Assembly: GCF_023243045.1 (NCBI RefSeq)
Contig: NZ_JALKFX010000005.1
Coordinates: 1 to 64,000, forward strand
DNA: 64,000 bases
Origin: Frankia sp. AgB32
GTDB taxonomy: Bacteria > Actinomycetota > Actinomycetes > Frankiales > Frankiaceae
Direction: 5' to 3'
The position numbers and the translations under genes are program-made. Under the pieces are notes generated by a model that was not told where the DNA came from, did not search any database, and worked only from the letters and a program-made list of their open reading frames with translations. Each line of letters begins with the position of its first letter. Position 1 is the stretch's first letter. This document shows positions 33,263-64,000 of the stretch, one piece after another.

Positions 33263-33551
33263 TGTCACGGGCTGACTGTACGGCGAAGCACCCTCCCGGC
33301 CACCCCCCACCGACCTGCTGGACCACTGCACCGGTGCGCTTCGGCTGTCCCGAGGGACACAGACGCCCGGCCGGAACTCGGCGGAAACCGCGCCGCCATC
33401 TGGTCTCGTTTTGCTGGAGGCGCGGCCTCGTGGGCACCCGGCGGACCGGTTCCGCCTCCACGTCGCCAACGGAGGAGCGGCTCGCCTCGTGACCACCGCC
33501 GCATCGCCCCGACCCGCACTGCCGACCCCCGGCCCGTCACACGACGACCAG

Positions 33552-34571
33552 ATGCGCACAACCCGTCACGACGGTCCAGACCATCTGGTGATCTCCGAAC
33601 ATCCGGTGCTGCGCCGTTTCTGGTACGCGGCCTCCTTCGCCGCCGAACTGGGGTCCGAGCCGCTGGCCCGCACCGTCCTTGGTACCCGGCTGGTGCTGTG
33701 GCGGGCGGCTGCTGGGGAGGCGCCGAGTGTCGCCCTGGACCGGTGCGCCCATCGGGACGCCCCGCTGTCCCGAGGCTGGATCGCGAACTGCCACCTGGTG
33801 TGTCCGTACCACGGCTGGGAGTGGGACGCGGCCGGGCAGACCCGGCGGATTCCGCAGTTTCCAGACTCGCCGCTGCCAGCCCGCGGCGGCCTGACCATGG
33901 TCGCCTCGCAGGAACGTTACGGCCTGGTGTGGGTCTGCCTCGACGACGATCCGCTGGTCGGCATCCCGCCGGTGCCCGAGTACGACGATCCCGCCTGGCG
34001 GGTCGTCCCCGAATACGAGTTCGCCTTCGACTGCACGGCGATGCACCTGCTGGAGAACAACTTCGACCCCGGCCACGTCGCGTTCGTCCATCGCAACACC
34101 TTCGGCAACCCGGACCGCGCCGAGCTGACCGACACCGTCGTCACCCGCGAGACCTACGGCATCCGGACCGAGGGGCGGGTGCCGGTGGACTCCCGGCCCG
34201 GCGAGGCCGGCGAGACGGTGCGCACGACCGTGTCGCGGCTCTACGCCCCGTTCCACGCTCACCTGCACATCACCTACCCGGACGGGCTTCGGCACGTGAT
34301 GGTGAAGGCGATCACGCCGGTCGACGACAACCGCTGCGTGCTTACGCAGATCGTGCTGCGGACCGACGGCGAGGTGGACCGTCCCGCCGCCGACATCCTG
34401 GACTTCGACGTGGCGGTGGAAAACGAGGACCGCGACCTGCTCGAACTGCTGCCCACGCCGTTCCCCTTGGCGCCACACCTCAACGCGCACGTCCGCGCCG
34501 ACCGCAACAGCCTGGCCATCCGCCGCCTGTGGACCGATCTGGTAACTGGTCGGTGGTTGCCCACCTGGTAG
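33552..34571 (+). CDS. Rieske non-heme iron oxygenase, alpha subunit type
   Basis: A 339-residue protein. The Rieske 2Fe-2S site is DRCAHRDAPLSRGWIANC then HLVCPYHGWEWD (Cys65-His67, Cys84-His87). The mononuclear iron site is ENNFDPGHVAFVHRNTF (His175 and His180 with a downstream Asp in the region of DFDVAVENEDRD). This matches the single-component ring-hydroxylating or demethylating oxygenases that need a separate reductase, and none is nearby. ATG 33552 is used; GTG 33489 in the same frame has GGAGGAG upstream and is an alternative. Substrate is unknown. Confidence 0.88.
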   Translation: MRTTRHDGPDHLVISEHPVLRRFWYAASFAAELGSEPLARTVLGTRLVLWRAAAGEAPSVALDRCAHRDAPLSRGWIANCHLVCPYHGWEWDAAGQTRRIPQFPDSPLPARGGLTMVASQERYGLVWVCLDDDPLVGIPPVPEYDDPAWRVVPEYEFAFDCTAMHLLENNFDPGHVAFVHRNTFGNPDRAELTDTVVTRETYGIRTEGRVPVDSRPGEAGETVRTTVSRLYAPFHAHLHITYPDGLRHVMVKAITPVDDNRCVLTQIVLRTDGEVDRPAADILDFDVAVENEDRDLLELLPTPFPLAPHLNAHVRADRNSLAIRRLWTDLVTGRWLPTW

Positions 34572-51929: not shown

Positions 51930-52331
51930 ATGGGAACCCTGGGCGACCACCTCGGCCCGCACGACCACGCGACGGCGATCTCCCTGCCGGTGCCGGCGGC
52001 GGCCAGCCACGACGCGCTGACGTGGGTCCGCGCCGTGTTCGTGGGCGCGCCGGCGTCGATGCGGCCGGCGCTGGTCGCCGGCTGGCGTGTCGGGCTGCGC
52101 CTGCGGCTGGGCCCGATCCGCTCCGCCGAACACGTGCCCGGCTGGTCGATCACCGAAAACGCGCCCGCACGAGCGGTGCTGACCGCGTCGTCGCCACTCA
52201 TGGACGCGGGGAACATCGCGGTGGTCGACCAGACAGGACGTGGCAATGGTCCGTCCGGGCCTTTCCGACCGCTCCGCCGAACGGGTGGCGAAGCCGTTAC
52301 TGTTGCGGAGTTTCCACGCATCAGCCCGTGA
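51930..52331 (+). CDS. Uncharacterised protein with possible DUF2867-like core
   Basis: An open frame of 133 codons. Residues about 12-95 (HDHATAISLPVPAAASHDAL then TWVRAVFVGAPASMRPALVA and GWRVGLRLRLGPIRSAEHVP) have the composition and W/G pattern of actinobacterial DUF2867-type small proteins. The last ~40 residues (DQTGRGNGPSGPFRPLRRTG) look shifted; an adjacent frame reads DRTWQWSVRAF and may be the real C-terminus. Coding but possibly broken. Confidence 0.45.
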   Translation: MGTLGDHLGPHDHATAISLPVPAAASHDALTWVRAVFVGAPASMRPALVAGWRVGLRLRLGPIRSAEHVPGWSITENAPARAVLTASSPLMDAGNIAVVDQTGRGNGPSGPFRPLRRTGGEAVTVAEFPRISP

Positions 52332-52464
52332 CCGATCTGCCACGCTCCCAGGCGGGCGGACGCCGGGAGCGTGCACGGAAACCGTGCGCGCCTGCCTCTC
52401 GGAGGGGCGCCCAGGGAGCTTCGCCGCAGACCAGCCAGCCGCCTACTCGGGAAACGGAAGCGCC

Positions 52465-53280
52465 ATGACCGCCGATCGCCCTGACATCGTGCCGGCCGCC
52501 CTGGACATCGACGTTCCGCATTCTGCGCGAATGTACGACTACTACCTCGGCGGAAAGGAGAACTTCCGCGCCGATCGGGAAGCAGCGGAAAAAGTCATCG
52601 CCGCCGCTCCGGAGGCGCCACTGATGGCCCGGGAGAACCGGGCGTTCATGAACCGTGCCGTCGCCCACCTCGCCGCCGATCACGGCGTCCGGCAGTTCCT
52701 CGATATCGGTACCGGCATTCCGACCGGTCCGAACCTGCACGAGATCGTCCAGGCGATCGACCCGGCCGCCCGCATCGTCTACGCCGACTACGACCCGCTG
52801 GTACTCACCCACGCCCGGGCGCTGCTCGGCGGCACCCGCGAGGGCCGCACCGCCTACCTACAGGCCGACCTGCGCGAGCCGCTGCCCCTGCTGGCCTCCG
52901 ACGAGGTGCGCGACACCCTCGACCTCACCCGCCCGGTCGGACTCTGCCTGGTCGCGATCCTGCACTTCATCACCGACGAGGAGGACCCGTACGGCGTGGT
53001 GCGCACCCTGCTCGACGGTCTGCCCTCCGGCAGCTACCTGACGCTGTCCCATGCCGTCTCCGACGCGGCCACCGCCGGCGCGGGCTCGATCGTGTCGACC
53101 TACCAGAAGTCCTCCTCCAGTCTCACCCTGCGCACGACCGAGCAGATCCGCGCCTTCTTCGACGGCCTCGACCTGCTGGACCCCGGCGTGACCCTCGTCC
53201 CGGCCTGGCGCCCCGCCGGACCGCTGCCCGACGGCCACGAGCGGGTCTGGATCGCCGGCGGCGTCGCGCGGCTGCCGTAG
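52465..53280 (+). CDS. DUF574-type SAM-dependent methyltransferase
   Basis: A 271-residue protein: DIDVPHSARMYDYYLGGKEN then FRADREAAEKV is the PF04672 signature. Motif I is VRQFLDIGTGIPTGPNLHEI, then ARIVYADYDPLVLTHARALL and RPVGLCLVAILHFITDEEDP. This large actinomycete-specific family, many copies per genome, has few assigned substrates and is often near XRE regulators of development. ATG 52465 follows GGAAGCG. Confidence 0.9.
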   Translation: MTADRPDIVPAALDIDVPHSARMYDYYLGGKENFRADREAAEKVIAAAPEAPLMARENRAFMNRAVAHLAADHGVRQFLDIGTGIPTGPNLHEIVQAIDPAARIVYADYDPLVLTHARALLGGTREGRTAYLQADLREPLPLLASDEVRDTLDLTRPVGLCLVAILHFITDEEDPYGVVRTLLDGLPSGSYLTLSHAVSDAATAGAGSIVSTYQKSSSSLTLRTTEQIRAFFDGLDLLDPGVTLVPAWRPAGPLPDGHERVWIAGGVARLP

Positions 53281-53349
53281 TCGCCGCAGGTCAGGCGCTC
53301 GAAAGTCGATCTGCCCGACGCGGATAGGCGGGTTTTGCTAGAGTCCCTG

Positions 53350-53478
53350 TCAGGTCTTGAGCGCCAGCGTTCAGCCCCGGCTTGCTGGCCGGCAACCCTG
53401 CGTCCGCACTGGGGTGCCCCGGGTGATGACAGGGCTGCGGCAACCCGCCAGCGGCAAGTGCCGACCCGTCACGGGTCC
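53350..53478 (+). promoter_or_regulatory. SAM-IV-like riboswitch
   Basis: The leader contains the conserved actinobacterial core GCGCCAGCGTTCAGCCCCGG, CTTGCTGGCCGGCAACCC and TGGGGTGCCCCGGGTGATGA. P1 pairs GTCA with TGAC. P2 pairs GCCAGC with GCTGGC. CCCCGG and CCGGGG elements can form the second helix and pseudoknot. This matches the SAM-I/SAM-IV clan as I know it. It ends just before the ribosome site AGAGGAG of the downstream gene. It should repress translation or transcription when S-adenosylmethionine is abundant. Confidence 0.82.
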
Positions 53479-53491
53479 AAGAGGAGCGACA

Positions 53492-54928
53492 TTGACCTCG
53501 ATCGTTTCTGTCATGCCCGAATCCGCTCGCCGCCCGGTGGTTCCCACCCAGCCGGGCGAGCCTGCCGCCGCTGGTGACACGGGACCGGCGGCAGCGCTGC
53601 TGGCCGTGCGGGGTGCCGGGCTGGGCGTGCCGCTCGTCGGCGGCGGCCGGGTGGAGTACGCCAACCTCGACTACGCGGCCAGCGCGCCGTGCCTGTCCGC
53701 CGTCGCCGAGCACGTCGAGCGGGTGCTGCCCTACTCGGCGAGCGTGCACCGCGGGGCGGGGTTCGCCTCCCAGGTGTGCACGTCGCTGTACGAGGGCGCC
53801 AGGGCGGACGTCGCCCGGTTCGTCGGCGCCCGCGACGATGACCTCGTCCTGTTCACCCGCAACACCACCGATGCCGTCAACCTGCTGGCCCGCGCGCTGC
53901 CCGCGGACGCTGGCGACGTCGTGCTGTTCGACCTGGAACACCACGCGAACCTGCTGCCGTGGCGCGGGCGCGGGGCGCGCTGCGTGGCGACCCGGTCGAC
54001 CCTGGCGGAAAGCCTGGCCGCGTTGGACGCCGAGCTGCGGGCCGCCCCGGTGGCCCTGCTCGCGGTGACCGGGGCGTCGAACGTCACCGGCGAGGCGCCA
54101 CCGCTGGCCCGCCTCGCCCGGCTGGCGCACGCCGCCGGCGCGCGGATCTTCGTCGACGCCGCGCAGCTCGCGCCGCACCGCCGGGTCGACATGGCCGCGC
54201 TCGGGGTCGACTACCTCGCCTTCTCCGGCCACAAGCTCTACGCGCCCTTCGGCGCCGGGGTGCTCGTGGGGGCGGCCGACTGGCTGGACGCGGCGACGCC
54301 GTACCTGGCCGGCGGCGGCGCCGTCCGCGAGGTCGGTACGGACGCCGTCGACTGGGCCACCGGCCCCGCCCGGCACGAGGCCGGCACGCCCAACCTCGCC
54401 GGCGCGACCGCGATCGCCGCCGCCTGCCGCACGATCGCCGCGTTGCCCGCCGGTGCCTGGGAGCAGCACGAGACCCAGCTGCGCGAGCGACTGCTGCGCG
54501 GACTGGACGCGCTGGACGGCGTCGTGATCCACCGGATCTGGGCGGACAGCGACGAGGTCGGCGGCGCCGGGATCGGCGTGGTCGCGTTATCGCTGCCCGG
54601 GCACGACCCCGGCCGGGTCTCGGCCTACCTCTCGGCCGAGCACGGCATCGGCGTGCGGGCCGGCCGGTTCTGCGCGCATCCGCTGCTGGCCCGCCTCGGC
54701 GTCCCCGGCGGCGCGCTGCGCGCCAGCGTCGGCGTCGGCTCGACGACCGAGCACGTCGACCGCCTGCTCGACGCCCTCGACAGCTACCTGCGAGTCGGCA
54801 CCGGCTGGACCTACGCCGTCCGCGACGGCCAGTGGCAGCCCGCTCCCGACGACCGCCGCCCACCGCAGTGGGTCGAGGACTTCGCCACCGGCCCGGCCGC
54901 AGCCGGCGCCTCGCCCTGCGGCACCTGA
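53492..54928 (+). CDS. Class V aminotransferase-fold PLP enzyme (cysteine-desulfurase-like), SAM-regulated
   Basis: About 478 residues, started by TTG 53492 with AGAGGAG at ideal distance; ATG 53513 is the alternative. Class V features: NLDYAASAPCLSAVAEHVER, SVHRGAGFASQVCTSLYEGA, TRNTTDAVNLLARALP, FDLEHHANLLPWRGRGARCV, FVDAAQLAPHRRVDM and the PLP Lys in YLAFSGHKLYAPFGAGVLVG. GVRAGRFCAHPLLARLGVPG supplies a Cys in the catalytic loop region of SufS-like desulfurases. The SAM riboswitch directly upstream indicates a role in sulfur-amino-acid metabolism or sulfur release. The C-terminal ~50 residues (TGWTYAVRDGQWQPAPDDRR) are a distinctive tail. Confidence 0.9.
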   Translation: MTSIVSVMPESARRPVVPTQPGEPAAAGDTGPAAALLAVRGAGLGVPLVGGGRVEYANLDYAASAPCLSAVAEHVERVLPYSASVHRGAGFASQVCTSLYEGARADVARFVGARDDDLVLFTRNTTDAVNLLARALPADAGDVVLFDLEHHANLLPWRGRGARCVATRSTLAESLAALDAELRAAPVALLAVTGASNVTGEAPPLARLARLAHAAGARIFVDAAQLAPHRRVDMAALGVDYLAFSGHKLYAPFGAGVLVGAADWLDAATPYLAGGGAVREVGTDAVDWATGPARHEAGTPNLAGATAIAAACRTIAALPAGAWEQHETQLRERLLRGLDALDGVVIHRIWADSDEVGGAGIGVVALSLPGHDPGRVSAYLSAEHGIGVRAGRFCAHPLLARLGVPGGALRASVGVGSTTEHVDRLLDALDSYLRVGTGWTYAVRDGQWQPAPDDRRPPQWVEDFATGPAAAGASPCGT

Positions 54929-54997
54929 CCGCCTCCAGCCGCGCTCCCAGCGCCACGAGCCGTAGCGGCCGGTTCCGAACCGACCGCCCGCGCCGTC

Positions 54998-55041
<44 letters not shown>

Positions 55042-55278
55042 CGGAGCGTGACGTCCAGCGGCGTCGGCGCGCGCAGGTGGGTCCCTCTGGACGACAATCC
55101 GGGCGCGAACCCGACCTCGTCGCCCTGTGTGATCTGGACCTTCGAGATCTGCCGGACGCAGGGACGGCGGTCCGTCCACGATCATCCTTTCTGGGGCCTC
55201 GCCCGGGGTGGACGGATACCGACCAGGCGGGCGCGGCGATGGGTGTCCCCCGGACCGTCCGGGCACGGACGCAGGTGA

Positions 55279-55294
55279 ACCTTTAACAGAAGGT
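55279..55294. promoter_or_regulatory. Inverted repeat before the MTHFR-like operon
   Basis: ACCTT-TAACAG-AAGGT is a perfect 5-bp inverted repeat 19 bp before the first ATG, in a locally AT-rich stretch. Candidate operator or promoter element. Confidence 0.45.
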
Positions 55295-55312
55295 CTATCG
55301 ACTCGAAACCGC

Positions 55313-56514
55313 ATGTCGATGGCCTCGCCCGACAGTGTTGGCGTGATGAACATCGGGGCGTTCGCCGAGGCCACCTGGCGTGGCGCGGTCGCCCGATGCC
55401 CCAAGCAGATGGTGCACGGCCCCTGCGCGGGAGTATCTGAGGACGGGCTCTGCGAGGTCCCCGGCACCGGTCCGTGCTCGTTCCTCGACGCCCTCGCCGC
55501 CTGGCCGTACGCGCCCCCCGACTGGCGGCGGCTGGCGCTGGCGGGCCCAACGCGGCCCAGCCCGCCACGGCCGCCGAGCCCGACACAGCCGTCCAGCCCC
55601 TCACGGCCGGCCGATCCGCGGCGGGTGTCCGCTCTGCGGCGGCCGTGGCGTTTCGGGCGGTGGCGGCGGTGCGGCCGGTTGTCGTCGCCGACCTGCCGGC
55701 GGCCGCGCTGTCCGCGGACAGTCTGCGGGCAAGCGCCGCCGTGCTCGCCGAGGCTGCCGACGCCTGCCTGCTCGGGGATCACGGTGGCGCGCGGGTGCAG
55801 TTTCCGCCGTCGTACCGGGCTCGGCTGCTCACGGACCTCGGGGTGGCGGTATGGGCGGGGATCAACTGCCGGGACCGCAACCGGGTCGCGCTCGAGGGTG
55901 AGATCGCTGCCTGCGCCGACGCGGGCGTGACCGGGCTGCACTGCGTCACCGGCGACCATCCGGCGCTCGGTCACCGGGCCGACGCGCCGGGAGTGTTCGA
56001 CCTGGACAGCCTCGACGTCGTCGCGCTGGCCCGCAGCCGCGGGCCGCTGGTGTCGGTGGCGCACGCGCCGGCCGCGCCGCCGGCGGACCGTCGCCTCTCC
56101 CGGCTCGACGCCAAGATCGACGCTGGTGCCGACGTGGTGTTCGTCGACCACTGCGGCGGCCTGGAGCCGCTCGCCGACGCGGTGGCCGCGCTGCGCGACA
56201 CGGGTTTCGGCGGGACGGTGCTCGGCTGCGTGCCGGTGGTGACGAGCGCGGCCAGCGCGGCCGTCGTCGCGTCCTTCGCCGGTCCCCGCCTGCCCGCCGG
56301 TTACCTGGAGGGGATCATGGAGGCGGTCGATCCGCGGGTGTCGGGCGTGCGCGCCGGGGCGGAGCTCGCCGAACGGATGCTGGCGCTGCCCGGCGTCGAC
56401 GGGATCAACCTCTCCGGTGGCGCGCGGCCCGGCCACGAACTTGCAGCCGCGGGCGCCACCGCCGAGATCGCCCGCCGCATCCTCGGCGTTCATCCCCGGG
56501 CGGCACTCTCATGA
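55313..56514 (+). pseudogene. MTHFR-like protein split by a frameshift (zinc-knuckle domain plus TIM barrel)
   Basis: From ATG 55313 the frame encodes the MTHFR C-terminal-type cysteine domain: NIGAFAEATWRGAVARCPKQ then MVHGPCAGVSEDGLCEVPGT and GPCSFLD, with CPK-x2-HGPC-x-GV and later Cys residues. Between about 55540 and 55660 the homology passes to another frame through an Ala/Pro-rich linker. It then reads VRPVVVADLPAAALSADSLR, VAVWAGINCRDRNRVALEGE, GVTGLHCVTGDHPALGH and VDPRVSGVRAGAELAERML, a methylenetetrahydrofolate-reductase-type TIM barrel with the folate-site TGDHP motif. Both halves look well conserved, so the shift is recent, a sequencing error or recoded. This is the first gene of a six-gene operon. 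Confidence 0.75.
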
Positions 56515-56557
56515 GCGGCACCTTCATGAGCGGCGCTGTGATGCGGGCGGTGCGGTC

Positions 56558-57868
56558 ATGAGCTGGCTGCGCGGCGCCACGACGGCGGACGGCGACGTCG
56601 TCGACGTGGAGATCGCCGACGGGATGATCCGCCAGGTCGTCCCGTCGACCGACCAGGCCGGGCGCACCGGGCGCACCGGGCCGGACGACGTCGACCTGAC
56701 CGGGCAGGTGCTGCTCGCGTCGTTCGTCGAGCCGCACGCGCATCTGGACAAGGCGCTCACCGCGTCGCTGGCCCGCAACGTCACCGGGGACCTCGCCGGC
56801 GCCATCGAGGCCATCCAGACGCTGCTGCCGGCCTCGACGGTGGCGGACTTCGCCGCCCGCGCCGAGGCGGCGCTGCGCATCCACCTGGCGCTGGGCACCA
56901 CCCACATCCGCACGCACGTCAACGTCGGCGTCCAGTCGGGCATGCGGGCGTTGGAAGCGCTGGTCGACGTGCGGGAACGCTGGCGTGGGCTGGTCGAGCT
57001 GCAGCTCGTCGCGCTGGTGTCGAACCCGCTGTCCGGACAGCCCGGCCGGGATCTGCGCCGGGCGCTGGCGGAGGGCGCCGACGTCGCCGGCGGCTGCCCG
57101 CACCTCGACCCAGAGCCGCACCAGGCCGTCGCCGTCTGCCTCGACGCCGCCGGGGAGGCCGGGCTTCCCCTGGACCTGCACACCGACGAGACCCTCGACC
57201 CGAGGCTGCTCACCCTCGCCACCCTCGCCGACCTGGTCACGCGCACCGGATTCCGGCACGGGGCGGCGGCGAGCCACTGCGTGAGCCTGTCGATGCAGCC
57301 GCCGAACGTGCAGGACCGGGTCAGCGAGCAGGTCGCCGCCGCCGGGGTCGGGATCGTCACGCTGCCGCAGACGAACCTGTTCCTGCAGGGCCGCGCGCAC
57401 GCCGTCGGCACCCCGCGCGGGCTGACCGCGATCGGGCCGCTGCGCCGCGCCGGGGCGGTCGTCGCCGCCGGTGGGGACAACCTGCGGGACCCGTTCAACC
57501 CGGTCGGCCGCGGCGACGCGCTGGAGACGGCGTCGCTGATGGTCACCGCCGGCCATCTCGGCCCGGACGAGGCCCTGGCGTCGGTGAGCGCGGCGCCGCG
57601 CGCGCTGCTCGGGCTGCCACCGGTGTCACTGACCCCGGGCAGTCCGGCGGATCTGGTGGCACTGCCCGCCGGCAGTGCCCTGGAGGCGCTCGCCGCCGCT
57701 GGTGCCGCCCGCACGGTGTGGCGCTCCGGGCGGATCGTCGCCCGCACCCGGGTCCACAGCGAGCTCGCCGCGCCCGCCGCGGCACCCGCCCGACCCACCG
57801 GCGGCGCCCGCCGCGCCGACGGTGTTCCTGCTGCGCACGCGAACCCCGAAAGGGAGGCAGTCTCGTGA
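56558..57868 (+). CDS. Cytosine-deaminase-like amidohydrolase
   Basis: A 436-residue protein from ATG 56558. Metal-dependent hydrolase motifs: FVEPHAHLDKALTASLARN (HxH and Lys of the CodA type), TTHIRTHVNVG, LPLDLHTDETLDPRLLTLAT (H-x-D/E), ASHCVSLSMQPP and VVAAGGDNLRDPFNPVGRGD with the final Asp. These are the CodA/N-isopropylammelide-type residues for deamination of N-heterocycles. It lies 43 bp after the MTHFR-like gene and its stop overlaps the ABC ATPase start, so the heterocycle is probably what the transporter imports. A glycine-poor Ala/Pro tail ends the protein. Confidence 0.87.
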   Translation: MSWLRGATTADGDVVDVEIADGMIRQVVPSTDQAGRTGRTGPDDVDLTGQVLLASFVEPHAHLDKALTASLARNVTGDLAGAIEAIQTLLPASTVADFAARAEAALRIHLALGTTHIRTHVNVGVQSGMRALEALVDVRERWRGLVELQLVALVSNPLSGQPGRDLRRALAEGADVAGGCPHLDPEPHQAVAVCLDAAGEAGLPLDLHTDETLDPRLLTLATLADLVTRTGFRHGAAASHCVSLSMQPPNVQDRVSEQVAAAGVGIVTLPQTNLFLQGRAHAVGTPRGLTAIGPLRRAGAVVAAGGDNLRDPFNPVGRGDALETASLMVTAGHLGPDEALASVSAAPRALLGLPPVSLTPGSPADLVALPAGSALEALAAAGAARTVWRSGRIVARTRVHSELAAPAAAPARPTGGARRADGVPAAHANPEREAVS

Positions 57869-58662
57869 CGATCACAGACACGACCGGCGTCGCCGCCGGC
57901 ACCGGCGACGCGGCGGCGGCCGGTGCGAACGCGGCGCCGGCGCTGCGCTTCGCCGGAGTGCGCAAGCAGTTCCGCGACGGCACGGTCGCGCTCGTCGACA
58001 CCGACCTGACGGTGCGCCCCGGCGAGTTCGTGTCGGTCGTCGGGCCGTCGGGCTGTGGGAAGAGCACGCTGCTGCGGATCGCCAGCGGCCTCGACGACGC
58101 CACCGGCGGGACGGTGGACGTCGCCTCGCGCAACGTCGGCTACGTCTTCCAGGACGCGACGCTGCTGCCGTGGCGCAACGTCGCCGCTAACGTGGGGCTG
58201 CTCGCGGAACTGGAGCACATGGACAAGGCCGAGCGCAGCCGCCGGATCGGCGAGGCCATCGGCCTGGTCGGGCTGACCGGGTTCGAGAAGCACCTGCCGC
58301 ACGAGCTCTCCGGCGGCATGCGGATGCGCGCGTCACTCGCCCGCTCGCTGGTGCTCGACCCGTCGATCTTCCTGTTCGACGAGCCGTTCGGCGCCCTGGA
58401 CGAGATCACCCGGGAACGACTCAACGACGAGCTGCTGCGGATGTTCGTGCTGCGCCGCTTCGCCGCGCTGTTCATCACCCACTCGGTGGCCGAGGCGGTG
58501 TTCCTGTCCACCCGGGTGGTGGTGATGAGTGGCCGGCCCGGGCGGGTGAAGGCGGACCTGGCCGTGCCGTTCGACTATCCGCGCTCCCCGGAGCTGCGCT
58601 ACCGGCCCGAGTTCGCCGCCCTGTGCGGGGAGATCTCCGGACACCTCAGGAGCGAGGCATGA
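57865..58662 (+). CDS. ABC transporter ATPase, nitrate/taurine/NMT1 type
   Basis: A 265-residue ATPase from GTG 57865 (overlaps the previous stop by 4 bp; GGGAGG upstream). Walker A VVGPSGCGKSTLLRIASGLD, Q-loop YVFQDATLLPWRNVAANVG, signature ELSGGMRMRASLARSLVL, Walker B IFLFDEPFGALDEITRERLN and H-loop FITHSVAEAVFLSTRV. The LPWRNV sequence after the Q-loop is diagnostic of the SsuB/TauB/ThiZ subfamily. It pairs with the permease, whose ATG overlaps its stop. Confidence 0.93.
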   Translation: MTITDTTGVAAGTGDAAAAGANAAPALRFAGVRKQFRDGTVALVDTDLTVRPGEFVSVVGPSGCGKSTLLRIASGLDDATGGTVDVASRNVGYVFQDATLLPWRNVAANVGLLAELEHMDKAERSRRIGEAIGLVGLTGFEKHLPHELSGGMRMRASLARSLVLDPSIFLFDEPFGALDEITRERLNDELLRMFVLRRFAALFITHSVAEAVFLSTRVVVMSGRPGRVKADLAVPFDYPRSPELRYRPEFAALCGEISGHLRSEA

Positions 58663-59651
58663 GCGCCCCGGTGCCCGCCGCGACCGACACCACCGGAACC
58701 GACTCCTCCCGACCCGACGCCACCCGACCCGACAGCTCGCAGGACGGGGCTGCCGGGCCCGCGTCGGCAGCCGCGGTGGCCGCCGCCTCCCGGGGCGCGG
58801 GTGCGCCGGACGCGTCGGGCTCGGCGACCCGATCCGGCCGGGCCCGCCGGTCCCGAAGCGGAAGCGGCAACGGGCCGATCAGCCTGGTTGTGCTGCCCGC
58901 GGCGGTGTTCGGGCTGTTCATCGGCCTGTGGTACGCCGTGTCCGAGGGGATGCTCAACCAGCAGCAGCGGTTCATGCTGCCGCCGCCGCACGAGGTCGTC
59001 CGGATCGGTTTCCTCGACGGGAAGAACTTCTCGTCGATGATGAGCGCGCTGAAGCTGACCAGCGAGGTGACCTTCGCCGGGCTGGCCATCGCGATCGTCA
59101 TCGGTGTCCTCGTCGCGGTGGCCATGAGCCAGGCCAGGTGGATCGAGAACTCGCTCTACCCGTGGGCGGTCGTCGTCCAGACGGTGCCGATCCTGGCGCT
59201 GACGCCGGTGCTGAGCTTCTTCTTCGGGTTCGCGCTGACGAGCCGGATCATCGTCTGCGTCATCATCGCGTTCTTCCCGATCGTGTCGAACACGCTGTTC
59301 GGGCTGCAGTCCGTCGACCGGGGCATGCACGAGCTGTTCACCCTGCACCACACCGGGCGCCTCACCCGGCTGTGGAAGCTGCAGATCCCGGCGGCGCTGC
59401 CGTCGATGTTCACCGGGTTCCGCAACGCGGCGGGGCTGGCGGTGATCGGCGCGATCGTCGGGGAGTTCGCCTTCAAACAGGGCGATCCGGGGCTCGGCAC
59501 GAACATGTCGGTGTTCACCTCCCGGTTGGAGGGCGAGCGCCTGTGGGCGACCACGCTCACCGCGAGCCTGCTCGGCATCGCGGTCTTCGTCTTCTTCGGT
59601 TGGCTCGCACGCCGCGTCGTCGGCCGCTGGTACCAGCCGAAGCGCGGCTGA
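58659..59651 (+). CDS. ABC transporter permease, SsuC/TauC/ThiX type
   Basis: A 330-residue permease with a 70-residue disordered Ser/Ala N-terminus, then six helices: ISLVVLPAAVFGLFIGLWYA, VTFAGLAIAIVIGVLVAVAM, WAVVVQTVPILALTPVLSFF then FGFALTSRIIVCVIIAFFPI, NAAGLAVIGAIVGEFAF and TTLTASLLGIAVFVFFGWLA. The EAA-like loop is RLTRLWKLQIPAALPSMFTG. ATG 58659 overlaps the ATPase stop (ATGA). Confidence 0.92.
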   Translation: MSAPVPAATDTTGTDSSRPDATRPDSSQDGAAGPASAAAVAAASRGAGAPDASGSATRSGRARRSRSGSGNGPISLVVLPAAVFGLFIGLWYAVSEGMLNQQQRFMLPPPHEVVRIGFLDGKNFSSMMSALKLTSEVTFAGLAIAIVIGVLVAVAMSQARWIENSLYPWAVVVQTVPILALTPVLSFFFGFALTSRIIVCVIIAFFPIVSNTLFGLQSVDRGMHELFTLHHTGRLTRLWKLQIPAALPSMFTGFRNAAGLAVIGAIVGEFAFKQGDPGLGTNMSVFTSRLEGERLWATTLTASLLGIAVFVFFGWLARRVVGRWYQPKRG

Positions 59652-59700
59652 CCCGTCCCGCGACACCACCCCATCCGGGCCCGCTCGGGCTGTTCACGTT

Positions 59701-59718
59701 CTGGCCCACGTGGGCCAG
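59701..59718. promoter_or_regulatory. Perfect 18-bp palindrome between permease and binding-protein genes
   Basis: CTGGCCCACGTGGGCCAG is perfectly self-complementary and lies 22 bp before the binding-protein TTG start. It may be a stabilising or attenuating hairpin that lets the binding protein be made in excess, or an operator. Confidence 0.6.
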
Positions 59719-59740
59719 TAGATCCAGGGGGAGACCTCAC

Positions 59741-60946
59741 TTGAGCACATTTCGGCGACGTCCCGCGCGGCTTGTCGCGCTGACGGCGACCGCCACCGCG
59801 CTCGCCCTCACCGCCGCGGCCTGCGGCAGCAGTGGCAGCGACGGGACGTCCAGCGCCGCCGCGCCCTCCGCGGCCGGCGGCGCTGTGCCCGCCCAGTACG
59901 ACCTGAAGGCCGCTGGCTGCCCGTCGACGGTCGTGCTGCAGACGGACTGGAACCCGGAGTCCGAGCACGGCGGCCAGTACCAGCTTCTCGGTCCCAACCC
60001 CAAGATCAATTCGGGGGCGAAGTCGGTCACCAGCGAGCTGGTCGCGCACGGCGGCGTCGACACCGGGGTGAAGCTGGAGATCCGCGCCGGCGGCCCGGCG
60101 GTCGGCTTCCAGACCGTGACGTCGCAGCTCTACAAGGATTCCAACATCACGCTGGGCTATGTCAGCACGGACGAGCAGATCGCACTGTCGAAGACCCAGC
60201 CGACGGTGGCGCTGCTCGCCGGCCTGGAGAAGAGCCCGCAGATCATCCAGTGGTCGCCGGAGAAGCACCCGGACTGGAAGGCGATCGCGGACATCGGGAA
60301 GACGAACACCAAGGTCCTGTACTTCCAGGGCGCCGCGTACATGGACTACTTCACCGGATCGGGCATTCTCAGGGCCAGCCAGATCGACGGCAGCTACGAC
60401 GGGACGCCGACGAACTTCGTCGCCTCCGGCGGCGACGTCGCCGTGCAGGGTTTCGCCACCTCGGAGCCCTACACCTACGCGCATGAGGTCCGGTCGTGGG
60501 ACAAGCCGATGAAGTACCAGCTCATCGCGGACGCCGGCTTCAACTTCTACCAGCAGGCGATCGGCGTTCGCAAGGACAGGCTCGCCGCCCTCAAGCCCTG
60601 CCTGACGAAGCTGATTCCCATCATGCAGCAGGGTGTCGTCGACTTCGTGGGTAACCCGGCGGCGACGAACAAGCTGATCCTGAACCTCGTCGACAAGTAC
60701 GACAACGGCTGGGTCTACAGCGAGGGCGTCGCGAACTACGCCGTGTCCACGATGAAGTCGCTGGGCATTGTCGGTAACGGTGCGAACAGCACCCTCGGTG
60801 ACTTCGATGACACGCGCCTGCAGAAGCTCATCGATATTCTGGGTCCGATCTACCAGCAGCAGAACAAGCCGATCCAGGCCGGACTGAAGCCGTCGGACCT
60901 CGTCGACGGCAGCTTGCTGGACGCGAAGATCGGGCTGGGTTCGTGA
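59741..60946 (+). CDS. ABC transporter substrate-binding lipoprotein (NMT1/THI5-like)
   Basis: A 401-residue protein started by TTG 59741 behind GGGGGAG. The signal peptide and lipobox are RLVALTATATALALTAAACG with Cys lipidated. The mature part CPSTVVLQTDWNPESEHGGQ then SGAKSVTSELVAHGGVDTGV, NITLGYVSTDEQIALSKTQP and QAIGVRKDRLAALKPCLTKL has the NMT1/SsuA/ThiY-like two-lobe pattern, with the DWNPESEHGG region near the usual pyrimidine site of ThiY. It is the periplasm-side ligand catcher for the transporter upstream. Two Cys residues near the ends may form a disulfide. Confidence 0.9.
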   Translation: MSTFRRRPARLVALTATATALALTAAACGSSGSDGTSSAAAPSAAGGAVPAQYDLKAAGCPSTVVLQTDWNPESEHGGQYQLLGPNPKINSGAKSVTSELVAHGGVDTGVKLEIRAGGPAVGFQTVTSQLYKDSNITLGYVSTDEQIALSKTQPTVALLAGLEKSPQIIQWSPEKHPDWKAIADIGKTNTKVLYFQGAAYMDYFTGSGILRASQIDGSYDGTPTNFVASGGDVAVQGFATSEPYTYAHEVRSWDKPMKYQLIADAGFNFYQQAIGVRKDRLAALKPCLTKLIPIMQQGVVDFVGNPAATNKLILNLVDKYDNGWVYSEGVANYAVSTMKSLGIVGNGANSTLGDFDDTRLQKLIDILGPIYQQQNKPIQAGLKPSDLVDGSLLDAKIGLGS

Positions 60947-61027
60947 TCAGGACGGATAGCTGACGGAGATGTCGGACTCCACCCTCGCGGCCTCGCGGGG
61001 CGGCCAGGCCGCGCGACGCTGCCCACC

Positions 61028-62338
61028 GTGACCCCGCTCGACCCGGCCGCGCTCGACGCCCTCGCCGCGGAACTCTCCGCGCTTGTCGGCGCGGACGCGG
61101 TGCACCGCGATTCCTCGACCCTGCTGTCGGCGTCGACGGACTGGGCGCACATGAGTCCGGTCCTCGCGCCGCTGCTACCCGGCGGCGTCGCCGACGTGGT
61201 GGTCCGCCCACCCGACGCGGCCGGGATCGCGGCGGCCGTCGGCGCGGCCCACCGCCACCGCATCCCGGTGACCGTGCGCGGCCAGGGCACCGGCAACTAC
61301 GGCCAGGGCATCCCGCTGTTCGGCGGCCTGGTCCTCGACACCTCCGCGGCCACCCGCATCCTGTCCGTCTCCGACGGCTGGCTCACCGCGGAGGCCGGCG
61401 CGTCGTTCGTCCTGATGGAGAAGGCCGCCGCGGCCACCGGGCAGGAGCTGGCGATCCTGCCGTCCACGGTCGGCAGCACCGTCGCCGGATTCATCGCCGG
61501 TGGCTCCGGCGGCACCGGGTCGATCGCGAACGGCGCGATCTGGGACGGCTACCTGCGCTCCCTGCTCGTCGTGCCGTGCACGGACGACGCGACGCCGGTG
61601 GCGGTGCCGTTCCCGGAGAACACGGCGATGGCGCACGCGTTCGGGGTCTCCGGCGTGATCGCCGAGGCGACGGTGGCGCTGCGCCCGGCGCGGCGCTGGA
61701 CCGGGCTGTACGCGTCGTTCCCCACCCTGCACGGCGCCGTCGCCGCAGGTGAGGAACTGTTCGACCTGGATCCGACGCCGCGGCTGCTGTCACTGGACGA
61801 GGCGGGGATCATCGCCACCTACCGCCCGGCGGACCCGGCGCTGCCCGCGGACCGGGTGAGCGTGCGCGGCATCGTCACCGAGGACAGTGTCGACGCGGCG
61901 AGCGCGGTCGTGGCCCGCCACGGCGGCCGCGTCGACGCGGTACGCCCCAAGGGTCCCGCGCACATCGCGTCGCTGTCGTACAACCACACCACCTACCGCG
62001 TCCGCAAGGTCCGCCCGGAACTGACCCACCTGCAGTGCATGGGGCCGGGCCTCACCCGCCGGCGCGCCGAGGTCGCGGCGCTGGCGCCGGAGTCGCTCAT
62101 CCACCTGGAGGGCTTCCTCACCGCGAACGGCCGCGACTGGGTCGCCATGCTGTTCCTGCGCTACGACGGCGCCGACGACCTCTACGACCGGATGGCCCGC
62201 CTCGCCGACGTCGAGGTCCACGTCGACGACCCGCACACCTGGGAACTGCACCACGGCCGCCTCGACGCCGTACGCGCCGCCGCCGCCCGCTTCGACCCCG
62301 ACGGCCTGCTCAATCCGGGCAAGCTGCCACCCGCCTGA
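61028..62338 (+). CDS. FAD-linked oxidoreductase (GlcD/VAO type)
   Basis: A 436-residue enzyme from GTG 61028. The PCMH FAD-binding domain contains ADVVVRPPDAAGIAAAVGAA, VTVRGQGTGNYGQGIPLFGG and FIAGGSGGTGSIANGAIWDG. The C-terminal cap (LLSLDEAGIIATYRPADPAL, ALAPESLIHLEGFLTANGRD, FDPDGLLNPGKLP) ends with the family's terminal NPGK. The VAO group oxidises alcohols, 2-hydroxyacids or amines. Placed 81 bp after the transporter, it is probably the oxidative step of the same pathway. Confidence 0.9.
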   Translation: MTPLDPAALDALAAELSALVGADAVHRDSSTLLSASTDWAHMSPVLAPLLPGGVADVVVRPPDAAGIAAAVGAAHRHRIPVTVRGQGTGNYGQGIPLFGGLVLDTSAATRILSVSDGWLTAEAGASFVLMEKAAAATGQELAILPSTVGSTVAGFIAGGSGGTGSIANGAIWDGYLRSLLVVPCTDDATPVAVPFPENTAMAHAFGVSGVIAEATVALRPARRWTGLYASFPTLHGAVAAGEELFDLDPTPRLLSLDEAGIIATYRPADPALPADRVSVRGIVTEDSVDAASAVVARHGGRVDAVRPKGPAHIASLSYNHTTYRVRKVRPELTHLQCMGPGLTRRRAEVAALAPESLIHLEGFLTANGRDWVAMLFLRYDGADDLYDRMARLADVEVHVDDPHTWELHHGRLDAVRAAAARFDPDGLLNPGKLPPA

Positions 62339-62350
62339 GCCCCGCGAGGA

Positions 62351-62839
62351 TCAGCGGGAGGCGGGCGAGCGGTACTTCTCCCGCAGCCGGTCCCACACCT
62401 GCGGCGCGACGAGGCGGCTGACGTCGCCGTCGCGGCTGGCGACGTCCTTGACCAGGCTGGAGCTGAGGAACGAGTACTCCGGCCGGGCCGCGATGAACAG
62501 CGTCTCCACCTCGGAGAGACGGCGGGTCATCTGGGCGATCTGGAGTTCGTACTCGAAGTCGCTCACGGAACGCAGGCTGCGCACGATCGCGGTGATGCCG
62601 TTGCGCAGGCAGAAGTCGGCGAGCAGGCCGTCGAAGGTGGCGACGCGGACGTTCGCCAGGTGCGCGGTGGTCGACATCAGCATGGCCACCCGCTCGTCGA
62701 CCTCGAACAGGCAGCGTTTCGAGACGTTCGGCAGCACCGTCACGACGAGCTCGGCGGTGAGGGCCGCGGCTCGTTCGATGATGTCGACGTGCCCGACGGT
62801 GACCGGGTCGAACGATCCCGGACAGACTGCTCGACGCAC
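62351..62839 (-). CDS. coaD: Phosphopantetheine adenylyltransferase
   Basis: A 162-residue CoaD: RAVCPGSFDPVTVGHVDIIE (GSFDPxTxGH), ADFCLRNGITAIVRSLRSVS then DFEYELQIAQMTRRLSEVET, and YSFLSSSLVKDVASRDGDVS (the SSSxVK motif). It converts 4'-phosphopantetheine and ATP to dephospho-CoA. GTG 62839 with GGAAGG directly upstream is chosen over longer frames. It converges on the oxidoreductase gene. Confidence 0.95.
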   Translation of the reverse strand: MRRAVCPGSFDPVTVGHVDIIERAAALTAELVVTVLPNVSKRCLFEVDERVAMLMSTTAHLANVRVATFDGLLADFCLRNGITAIVRSLRSVSDFEYELQIAQMTRRLSEVETLFIAARPEYSFLSSSLVKDVASRDGDVSRLVAPQVWDRLREKYRSPASR

Positions 62840-63074
62840 CCTTCCACCACCTCCACGGATCAACCACGACCGCCAGAAAGATCACATCGTGACACGGCGT
62901 CGGGCACGCGGCGCCACTTTTCACTCACGCTTCGGAGTGTTGCTGCGCCGGTCAGGGGCGCGGTCGGGTCACCATCAGGACCGACTCCGGGCCCGAAGGG
63001 GCCGCGGGTTCGCGGGTGCTCGCCGAGGCGGCGGCACGAACGGGCCATCACGAGCCGGACGGGAGTGCCACCAG

Positions 63075-64000
63075 ATGGGCGGCCGGGAGCCTGGACATCT
63101 CGCCGGCGGGCGCCGGACACACCTGATGGTCGCGGCGGTCTCGATGGCGGGTTCGATGCTCGTCGCCGTCCCCGAGCCGGCGGGGGCGGGCGCGCAGGCG
63201 GGGCTGTTCGCGCCGGCCGCCGACTACCTCTCCGGGCACGGCCCGACGTCGGTGTCCGTCGGTGACCTGCGCGGCGACGGGCGCAGCGACATCGTCACGG
63301 TCAACGCCGGCGACGGCACGGCCTCGGTGCTGCTGGCCACCGGCGACGGGACGTTCTCGGCGCCGCGGATCTACCCGGTCGGGCCCGGGCCGACCGGGCT
63401 GGACATCGGCGACCTCAACGGCGACGACGTGCCCGACCTGGCGGTGTCGAACCAGTTCAACGCGTCGGCGACGGTGCTGTTCGGCAACGGGGACGGCACG
63501 TTCCGCCCGCCGCTGGTCCTGCCGGTCGGCTCGGGCCCGTCGGCGGTGGCGATCGCGGATGTCACCGGCGACGGGGTCACGGACATCGTCGTCACCGACC
63601 AGTTCGACGGCACGGCGGCGGTCCTCGTGGGCAACGGCCACGGCGGTTTCGCGCCGCCGCGGTTCACGCCGGTCGGGCCGAGCCCGTCGTCGGTGGCCGT
63701 GGGTGATCTGACCGGTGACGACGTGCCGGACCTGGCCGTCACCGACGCCGGGAACGCCACGGTGGTGGTGTTGCCGGGCAACGGCGACGGCACGTTCGGG
63801 GTCGGCCGGCCCTACCTGACCGGGCCCGGCCCGTCCTCGCTGGACATCGGTGACCTCACCGGTGACGGCGTCGACGACCTCGCGGTCACGAACTCCGGGA
63901 ACGCGACCGTGTCCGTGCTCCCGGCGACGGGCAACGGCGGGCTGGGGGCCCCGCGGACCTACCTCGCCGGGCCGGGGCCCTCGTCGATCACCATCGGGGA
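63075..64000 (+). CDS. Secreted FG-GAP/VCBS repeat protein (3' part beyond window)
   Basis: The frame is open from ATG 63075 to the window edge. A basic leader and hydrophobic stretch (HLMVAAVSMAGSMLVAVPEP then AGAGAQAG) form a signal peptide. From residue about 45 there are repeats of about 48-50 residues, each with VGDLRGDGRSDIVTVN, IGDLNGDDVPDLAVSN, IADVTGDGVTDIVVTD or VGDLTGDDVPDLAVTD followed by ATVLFGNGDGTF. The D-x-D/N-G-D-x-x-D calcium loop and GNGDGTF are FG-GAP signatures; each repeat is one blade of a beta-propeller. At least five to six blades are visible. Start codon choice is tentative. Confidence 0.88.
   Translation, partial: MGGREPGHLAGGRRTHLMVAAVSMAGSMLVAVPEPAGAGAQAGLFAPAADYLSGHGPTSVSVGDLRGDGRSDIVTVNAGDGTASVLLATGDGTFSAPRIYPVGPGPTGLDIGDLNGDDVPDLAVSNQFNASATVLFGNGDGTFRPPLVLPVGSGPSAVAIADVTGDGVTDIVVTDQFDGTAAVLVGNGHGGFAPPRFTPVGPSPSSVAVGDLTGDDVPDLAVTDAGNATVVVLPGNGDGTFGVGRPYLTGPGPSSLDIGDLTGDGVDDLAVTNSGNATVSVLPATGNGGLGAPRTYLAGPGPSSITIG

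Follow-up and report, generated by a model that had tools for sequence, protein, structure and literature searches.

A conserved actinobacterial operon for heterocycle uptake and catabolism, with the pterin of folate as a candidate substrate

Which compound is served by an operon that sets an ATP-binding cassette (ABC) importer, a CodA-like amidohydrolase and a flavin adenine dinucleotide (FAD) enzyme beside a protein resembling methylenetetrahydrofolate reductase (MTHFR)? The question is raised by a locus at approximately 55313-62338 of a 64,000-nucleotide stretch of Frankia sp. AgB32 (hereafter, the window), located on contig C230 of a 274-contig, 6.68-Mb genome. The initial annotation had read these genes as a candidate salvage pathway that might import an N-heterocycle, deaminate and oxidise it, and pass a one-carbon unit to folate. 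With high confidence, we find here a conserved operon for heterocycle uptake and catabolism. We further propose, with a probability of about 0.5, that it serves the uptake and ring degradation of a pterin or a similar heterocycle, most likely the pterin from folate. The features of the locus are as follows.

55313-55591, plus strand: N-terminal part of the MTHFR-like gene, carrying the DUF5981 motif CPKQMVHGPC...C...C, in frame 2
55514-55519, plus strand: run of six C, at which the frame shifts from 2 to 1 in comparison with relatives
55546-56514, plus strand: MTHFR-like TIM barrel, in frame 1 and out of frame with the zinc motif
56511-56561, plus strand: putative 16-codon open reading frame (ORF), read from the sequence by eye
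56558-57868, plus strand: CodA-like amidohydrolase (Amidohydro_3), a proposed pterin-type deaminase, assigned from Pfam, NCBIfam and alignment
57865-58662, plus strand: ABC transporter ATPase of the taurine/nitrate type, by Pfam and NCBIfam
58659-59651, plus strand: ABC transporter permease, by Pfam and NCBIfam
59741-60946, plus strand: lipoprotein-like substrate-binding protein, with a likely TTG start after AGGGGGAG
61028-62338, plus strand: FAD enzyme of the VAO fold by Pfam, with 6V42 as nearest solved relative

All named coding regions lie on the plus strand, as first described, and five of the six genes are intact (the CodA-like amidohydrolase, ABC ATPase, permease, lipoprotein receptor and FAD enzyme), but the MTHFR-like gene is split across two frames. 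Pfam matches across the locus are to MTHFR, DUF5981, Amidohydro_3, ABC_tran, BPD_transp_1 and FAD_binding_4. The reported joining of genes by 4-bp overlaps is borne out between amidohydrolase and ATPase (57865-57868, GTGA) and between ATPase and permease (58659-58662, ATGA); by eye, overlaps of the same length also flank the 16-codon ORF, which bridges the MTHFR stop (56512-56514) and the amidohydrolase start (56558). The LPWRNV-type ATPase (an ABC_tran match containing LLPWRNV) and the VAO/GlcD-type flavoenzyme (a FAD_binding_4 match with a VAO fold) were likewise recovered.

The association of these genes is more than chance, as their order is kept in other genera, and in other families with or without the MTHFR-like gene. 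Among 15 Frankiaceae loci fetched besides the window's own, 10 have the same gene order, although in one the contig stops within the receptor, ahead of the FAD gene. In the remaining five, MTHFR is truncated in two, one locus begins inside MTHFR, G015 holds MTHFR only and G006 gave no match at 1e-8. Outside the Frankiaceae, G228, G163 and G225 carry amidohydrolase, ATPase, permease, receptor and FAD enzyme in this order, followed by a creatininase-family gene (Pfam assignment run on the G228 gene only), and G277 has the same order with a short-chain dehydrogenase/reductase gene inserted. In G122, the amidohydrolase, ATPase, permease and receptor are found with MTHFR and VanB-like genes, with the FAD gene adjacent. 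An MTHFR-like gene is also near the operon in three further families and in four Klenkia loci.

From a scan with the amidohydrolase, the best 80 named loci among the matches listed were taken, of which those placeable by title belong to the Actinomycetota and some are the same genomes as above. Because ad hoc gene calling misses and mis-starts genes, neighbours were counted by tblastn (1e-10) within approximately 9 kb of the amidohydrolase. The ATPase was found in 68 loci, the permease in 64, the receptor in 58, a luciferase-like monooxygenase in 42, creatininase in 30, the FAD enzyme in 20, an 8-oxoguanine-deaminase-like amidohydrolase in 18, MTHFR in 13 (3 partial), UbiD in 12, VanB in 7 and VanA in 6, counts that contig ends lower and that unrelated copies of large families such as the ATPase may raise. 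The neighbourhood is thus conserved beyond this genome, with parts of it in most of the 80 loci, and the conserved order clearly contradicts the notion that the genes are only adjacent here. In Acidimicrobiia (L156, L166, L184-L187 and L195), a larger conserved cluster surrounds the amidohydrolase, comprising creatininase, UbiX, the amidohydrolase, UbiD, a Mer-like luciferase-family gene, a luciferase-like gene, ATPase and permease, along with a CrtO-like flavoprotein and RidA (each in most), a second Mer-like gene and a second amidohydrolase.

The pterin or folate option gains support from the solved relative of the FAD enzyme and from a rhizobial operon. Residues 12-433 of the FAD enzyme match 6V42 at 30% identity (E 5.3e-47), with the next PDB chain at 4.1e-13. 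Similarly, its predicted structure (17-row alignment, predicted local distance difference test score (pLDDT) 83.9) superposes on 6V42 with Z 40.3 and a root-mean-square deviation of 2.5 over 425 residues, while the next entry reaches Z 31.8. By sequence and modelled fold, the enzyme appears as a 6V42-type protein that stands clear of other VAO enzymes. The title of the 6V42 entry describes a flavin oxygenase "involved in folate catabolism".

A plasmid search with the window's FAD enzyme gave no match at E 1e-40; the 6V42 sequence as query matched 141 plasmid records at 1e-40, of which 109 are from Rhizobium. The FAD enzyme of Rhizobium ruizarguesonis TA1 (plasmid pTA1_1) is 66.2% identical to 6V42, and both TA1 and Rhizobium sp. 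CCGE532 encode a run of receptor, ATPase, permease, 'cytosine deaminase', FAD enzyme and NAD(P)H oxidoreductase with a creatininase upstream, to which the TA1 region adds RidA and a molybdenum oxidoreductase set. A third Rhizobium plasmid has matches to the FAD enzyme and to the amidohydrolase approximately 60 bases from each other; this region and one more carry no annotation. The amidohydrolase, ATPase, permease, FAD enzyme and creatininase of the Frankia and rhizobial loci are each 32-47% identical (E at most 1e-38). Both operons thus set receptor, ATPase, permease, CodA-like amidohydrolase and FAD enzyme in a row, with a creatininase nearby, whereas the rhizobial one has no MTHFR-like gene, adds a gene of the flavin mononucleotide reductase type (and RidA in TA1), and differs in gene order and in its receptor. 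The window operon is an actinobacterial variant of the rhizobial operon, with an MTHFR-like gene and another receptor. The initial annotation knew of no characterised pathway with this combination of genes; a very similar rhizobial operon does exist, with a FAD-enzyme relative titled as acting in folate catabolism, but a full-text search, whose coverage leaves out most subscription papers, found no paper describing either the rhizobial or the window operon.

The motifs PHAHLD, LHTDE, ASHC and GGDN of the amidohydrolase align with CodA (1k6w), so that the metal ligands (which we take to be the two His of PHxH, two further His and the Asp) and the presumed catalytic Glu are kept. At the place of CodA Gln156, presumably the contact that recognises the pyrimidine, the window enzyme has Ser and aligned relatives have Ser, Gly, Asp, Asn, Val or a gap; the glutamine is also absent from the Rhizobium TA1 amidohydrolase, and DDVFDPW of CodA is replaced by DN-RDPF in both the window and the Rhizobium enzyme. 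Given the missing glutamine and this substitution, the window enzyme is CodA-like, though probably something other than a cytosine deaminase. The earlier label of a CodA-type hydrolase therefore holds for the active-site residues but not for the substrate glutamine, and the enzyme stays below the cut-off of every NCBIfam model matched. The best of these is PRK07583 (238 bits against an equivalog cut-off of 403), the same family of which the TA1 enzyme is a member at 699 bits. We propose pterin deaminase as its candidate activity.

The receptor is lipoprotein-like, as first reported, but its NMT1/THI5 label reduces to a weak similarity to Rhizobium receptors (25-26% identity, E 1e-9 to 1e-12), of which that of TA1 matches the Pfam family PF09084 (NMT1). 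The window receptor has no match to PF09084 (cut-off 20.5 bits), a distant operon homologue, L109, reaches 17.3 bits, and a search with the receptor profile returned no useful PDB chain. Paralogues of this receptor family occur in Frankiaceae at G009:C188, G006:C647, G017:C162 and G000:C228. Three of the four (L111, L112 and L114) adjoin an ATPase, a permease and a 26-28% match to the 8-oxoguanine-deaminase-like amidohydrolase, and the family may therefore serve several related ligands.

Further candidate enzymes are found elsewhere on the contig. At approximately 67.0-70.8 kb on the other strand, about 5-8 kb downstream of the operon, 4-bp overlaps link genes for a flavoprotein, a creatininase and a luciferase-like monooxygenase. 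The flavoprotein shares 45% identity with its CrtO-like counterpart in the Acidimicrobiia cluster. At approximately 73.2-77.1 kb follow an amidase, a metallo-beta-lactamase fold with an AtzH-like domain, a cupin and a RutB-like isochorismatase. The first three have counterparts in G225 (49, 44 and 55% identical, respectively), where they form a single cluster with the operon genes and creatininase. This resemblance would support a ring-dismantling route ending in ureido or oxalurate-type fragments. The matches to named pathway enzymes fall below their cut-offs, with the RutB-like isochorismatase at 148 bits against an equivalog cut-off of 378, the G225 flavin reductase at 73 bits against 255 for RutF, and the HpxZ-like domain (oxalurate catabolism) of the G225 amidase at 74.7 bits against 135. 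On the other side of the operon, at a distance of 21 kb, a plus-strand gene at 33411-34571 encodes a Rieske/VanA-type oxygenase that is 66-67% identical to a gene of the G122 cluster; it is present at 67% identity or more in 5 of the 11 Frankiaceae genomes searched, the window's included.

The MTHFR-like protein belongs to the MTHFR family by domain and by predicted fold. Its barrel matches PF02219 (MTHFR) at 30.5 bits (cut-off 24), and its zinc part, with the motif CPKQMVHGPC, matches PF12225 (DUF5981, 'MTHFR C terminal') at 27.9 bits (cut-off 23), a zinc domain that is presumably of the MetV type. A structure predicted for the Frankia canadensis orthologue (mean pLDDT 73.8 from an 11-row alignment, with the zinc part mostly below 50) gave Z 24.7 and a root-mean-square deviation of 3.3 over 270 residues against Thermus MTHFR 1v93, and at least 21.9 against the other canonical MTHFRs shown. 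Next below came 3ijd, an uncharacterised 5-methyl-tetrahydrofolate-binding protein (19.9), then the flavin-independent and SYK-6 MTHFRs (17.9-18.2) and other barrels (at most 17.7), in line with a predicted MTHFR barrel. The flavin-independent mycobacterial MTHFR was rejected as a model for the protein, with Z of at most 18.2 compared with 21.9-24.7 for most canonical MTHFRs (17.9 for that of SYK-6). A profile of the fused family matched no PDB chain at E 0.01.

By hhalign, VTGD of the protein aligns with LRGD of this genome's canonical MetF (probability 88, E 3e-6), a motif that we take to hold the pterin-binding Asp120 of E. coli, while the glutamine of the MetF motif ITQ is replaced by Asp. 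The catalytic residue of E. coli MTHFR is Glu28, according to the accessible part of PMC11094777. In the aligned folds, E. coli 22 corresponds to approximately model 98, which would put the Glu28 position near the invariant Asp104, although these are ranges and not residue pairs. The protein thus shares with MetF its modelled TIM barrel, the VTGD/LRGD aspartate and a zinc-type motif, but appears to have Asp in place of Glu28, carries its zinc motif N-terminally and, in the window, is encoded by a split gene. The conserved aspartate at the pterin-holding position suggests that it handles a reduced folate or pterin.

In a 32-row tree, 16 family members that are not operon-linked form a supported group (97/85), the 15 operon-linked members fall on one side of a weakly supported branch (43/86; 41% of bootstrap trees), and the branch leading to canonical MetF is very long. 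Given this branch support and the long MetF branch, a single recruitment of the gene to the operon is possible. In the other group, 4 of 5 members inspected carry the CPK motif, and a gene of 247-262 amino acids adjoins MTHFR in 7 of 8 opened loci (L120-L127), a class I methyltransferase by Pfam in L120 that looks alike in L126. Among 358 genomes of the class outside the Frankiaceae, 12 have the receptor family and 54 an MTHFR-profile match at 1e-15. When the 19 MTHFR matches at 2.5e-73 or better are considered, 3 genomes hold both against 0.64 expected (hypergeometric 0.02, kinship ignored); with all 54 kept, 3 are observed against 1.8 expected (0.27, kinship again ignored), so that co-occurrence by itself is weak. 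The receptor and MTHFR genes lie within 3.6 kb of each other in those 3 genomes, which favours a link between them.

In the window, the zinc motif (55346 to approximately 55519) is in frame 2, within an ORF that may start at 55313 or 55346, and the barrel (from approximately 55546) is in frame 1. Frame-2 similarity to relatives stops at the run of six C. In all 11 Frankiaceae loci with complete copies of both parts (10 carrying the operon, plus L043, whose 4.3-kb contig lacks it), motif and barrel share one frame, and the window copy is therefore frameshifted, by either a sequencing error or a real mutation. The zinc domain of the CPK-HGPC type and the MTHFR barrel named by the initial annotation were both detected, but not in one reading frame.

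Retention of the MTHFR-like gene was followed in 17 Frankiaceae genomes with the operon receptor at E < 1e-140. A full in-frame gene is present in 10 of them (G001, G002, G012 and G027-G033). Frankia sp. QA3 (G005, L045) retains a remnant consisting of the zinc motif and the last 48 residues, and in F. torreyi CpI1 (G011, L042) the gene ends after approximately 145 barrel residues; both keep the other five operon genes at 81-91% identity. In AiPa1 (G007, L249, on the same contig as L133) there is no MTHFR, and approximately 300 bases separate the amidohydrolase from a pyridoxal phosphate (PLP) enzyme gene, with amidohydrolase and transporter genes retained. Three genomes are uninformative, as the G009 locus starts within the gene, the G034 contig stops short of it and the operon of G008 is decayed; the contig end and the decay are why G034 and G008 were not counted as losses. 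The MTHFR-like subfamily looks like an operon accessory that has been lost, truncated or frameshifted in four members of the genus.

These observations are consistent with a route in which the lipoprotein receptor and ABC transporter would import an N-heterocycle, the CodA-like amidohydrolase would remove the ring amino group to turn a pterin-type into a lumazine-type ring, and the FAD enzyme would then oxygenate the ring, as its relationship to 6V42 suggests. Going by their families, the downstream creatininase-type hydrolase, luciferase-like monooxygenase and flavoprotein could carry out further hydrolysis and oxidation, and ureido-type fragments could pass to the RutB-like hydrolase and the amidase, with the MTHFR-like protein as an accessory. 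The import, deamination and oxidation proposed initially fit the homologies found, on which they rest, and the pterin or folate option among the suggested substrates is strengthened.

Several observations weigh against a pterin from folate as the substrate. The word folate comes from the PDB title of 6V42, and at 30% identity the substrate need not be shared; no hydrolase for folate or p-aminobenzoylglutamate is found among the annotated neighbours, not all neighbours being annotated; and the window receptor is distant from that of Rhizobium. Three of four plasmid regions opened through amidohydrolase homologues are without the rhizobial set, which the CCGE532 region has, so the amidohydrolase superfamily alone is not specific. 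Of these three, the Ensifer region carries UbiD, xanthine dehydrogenase, an NCS2 permease and another ABC type, the Terrarubrum region creatininase and a nucleoside deaminase, and the Paracoccus region UbiX and an NCS2 permease. The Rieske oxygenase and 8-oxoguanine-deaminase-like amidohydrolase of relatives fit purines equally, and a putative phosphoribosyltransferase in relatives and the Ensifer xanthine dehydrogenase and NCS2 permease fit purines as well. Furthermore, the FAD enzyme is present in just 20 of the 80 named loci, and the wider family may therefore serve more than one substrate.

The main rival, a doubtful one in our judgement, is an operon for an oxidised or methylated purine of the guanine or xanthine type, which would be imported, deaminated, oxidised by Rieske or flavin enzymes and then ring-opened. 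It draws on the VanA- and VanB-type Rieske genes beside the operon (6 and 7 of 80 loci), the 8-oxoguanine-deaminase-like amidohydrolase (18 of 80), the distant Ensifer homologue beside xanthine dehydrogenase and NCS2 permease, and the HpxZ-like domain of the G225 amidase, itself below cut-off. The neighbours in relatives also resemble a purine set under the control of the NMT1-motif xanthine riboswitch, described in the accessible part of PMC7373994 as NMT1/tauA transporters, PRK12393 deaminases and hpxDE-like Rieske enzymes. However, the core FAD enzyme is nearest to the folate-catabolism oxygenase 6V42, none of the six genomes of the genus searched yields a match to the 8-oxoguanine-deaminase-like gene at 1e-40 (the five of genus g7 do), and VanA occurs unevenly among Frankiaceae, as seen above. 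The recruitment of a relative of a folate enzyme also speaks against a purine.

An unlikely elaboration of the pterin proposal would build the MTHFR-like enzyme into the folate- or pterin-degrading operon, where it would act on incoming reduced folates or on a reduced pteridine intermediate. It might, for example, remove the N5-methyl or methylene group from 5-methyl-tetrahydrofolate, or reduce a ring C=N, before the ring is dismantled, rather than supply methionine synthesis. The loci of aquatic Acidimicrobiia have no MTHFR gene within 9 kb, and two of their luciferase-family genes have methylene-tetrahydromethanopterin reductase as best match (170 and 152 bits, below cut-off); these Mer-like genes could perform the equivalent step.

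A different heterocycle, such as the thiamine pyrimidine, another pyrimidine or a xenobiotic triazine, is distinctly improbable. NMT1-type receptors include binders of thiamine pyrimidines, the amidohydrolase resembles N-isopropylammelide hydrolase (E 8e-32), and the metallo-beta-lactamase with its AtzH-like domain, the AtzE/allophanate-type amidase and the RutB/biuret-hydrolase-like isochorismatase lie downstream; against this, the presumed pyrimidine-recognising glutamine of CodA is absent, and a distribution that takes in Frankia, Klenkia and aquatic Acidimicrobiia points to a compound common in nature. Least credible is a pathway whose central step passes one carbon unit of the degraded heterocycle to tetrahydrofolate through MTHFR, as the initial annotation had it: the MTHFR fold and the pterin-holding aspartate are kept and the gene is near the operon in several families, but it is full and in frame in only 10 of the 17 receptor-bearing Frankiaceae genomes, is frameshifted here, survives as a remnant in G005, is cut short in G011 and is absent from G007 while amidohydrolase and transporter remain, is missing from both annotated Rhizobium operons and is accompanied by a canonical MTHFR elsewhere in this genome (342.6 bits), and the reaction of MTHFR is to reduce a one-carbon unit that folate already carries, not to load it.

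Around the operon, a SAM-IV riboswitch at 53353-53466 on the plus strand (92.3 bits against a cut-off of 38) precedes a cysteine-desulfurase-like PLP gene (approximately 53507-54928) that is near the operon in several Frankia. It is the sole match above its family cut-off in 52000-64000, and no NMT1-motif or xanthine riboswitch was listed at E 1 in that region; scans for promoters and terminators returned nothing useful. The gap upstream of the operon contains a perfect GCCA tetranucleotide repeat of 11 copies (54998-55041), and imperfect 147-bp tandem repeats are found at 63341-63973 within an ORF called from approximately 63126.

Among described systems, pterin deaminase is known from Variovorax sp. 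F1 and from Agrobacterium (Arad3529), likewise a pterin- or folate-ring deaminase and compared here by its description; according to the accessible part of PMC9513972, the Variovorax enzyme takes folate and pteroate as substrates, and V. paradoxus has an 'endoribonuclease' gene downstream of its deaminase gene. By our interpretation this gene is of the RidA type, and RidA-type genes are also found in TA1 and in some Acidimicrobiia clusters. With the Rut uracil and Hpx purine pathways, the operon and its relatives share a luciferase-like monooxygenase, a RutB-like isochorismatase, RidA, a flavin reductase and HpxZ-like domains in or near the cluster, but the RutB, RutF and HpxZ matches are below cut-offs and the gene sets differ. 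The lumichrome (riboflavin) cluster of Nocardioides simplex likewise serves an actinobacterium to break down a pteridine-like vitamin ring with hydrolases and oxygenases; as far as the accessible part of PMC12746152 describes it, it uses a P450, a thiamine pyrophosphate-dependent decarboxylase, a xanthine-oxidase-like enzyme and a catechol dioxygenase, a set not seen here. Riboflavin or lumichrome catabolism was therefore rejected, on the enzyme set given in that text.

The natural decomposition of vitamins is not fully understood (PMC9513972) and cofactor catabolism is largely unexplored (PMC12746152), in the accessible words of both sources, and little is understood, past the first steps, of how soil and water bacteria degrade folate and pterins. 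A conserved operon of the Actinomycetota with a receptor, a candidate deaminase and a candidate ring oxygenase, together with its rhizobial counterpart, provides named genes for testing. For an MTHFR-like family otherwise seen beside a methyltransferase-type gene in actinobacteria, the operon represents a second setting.

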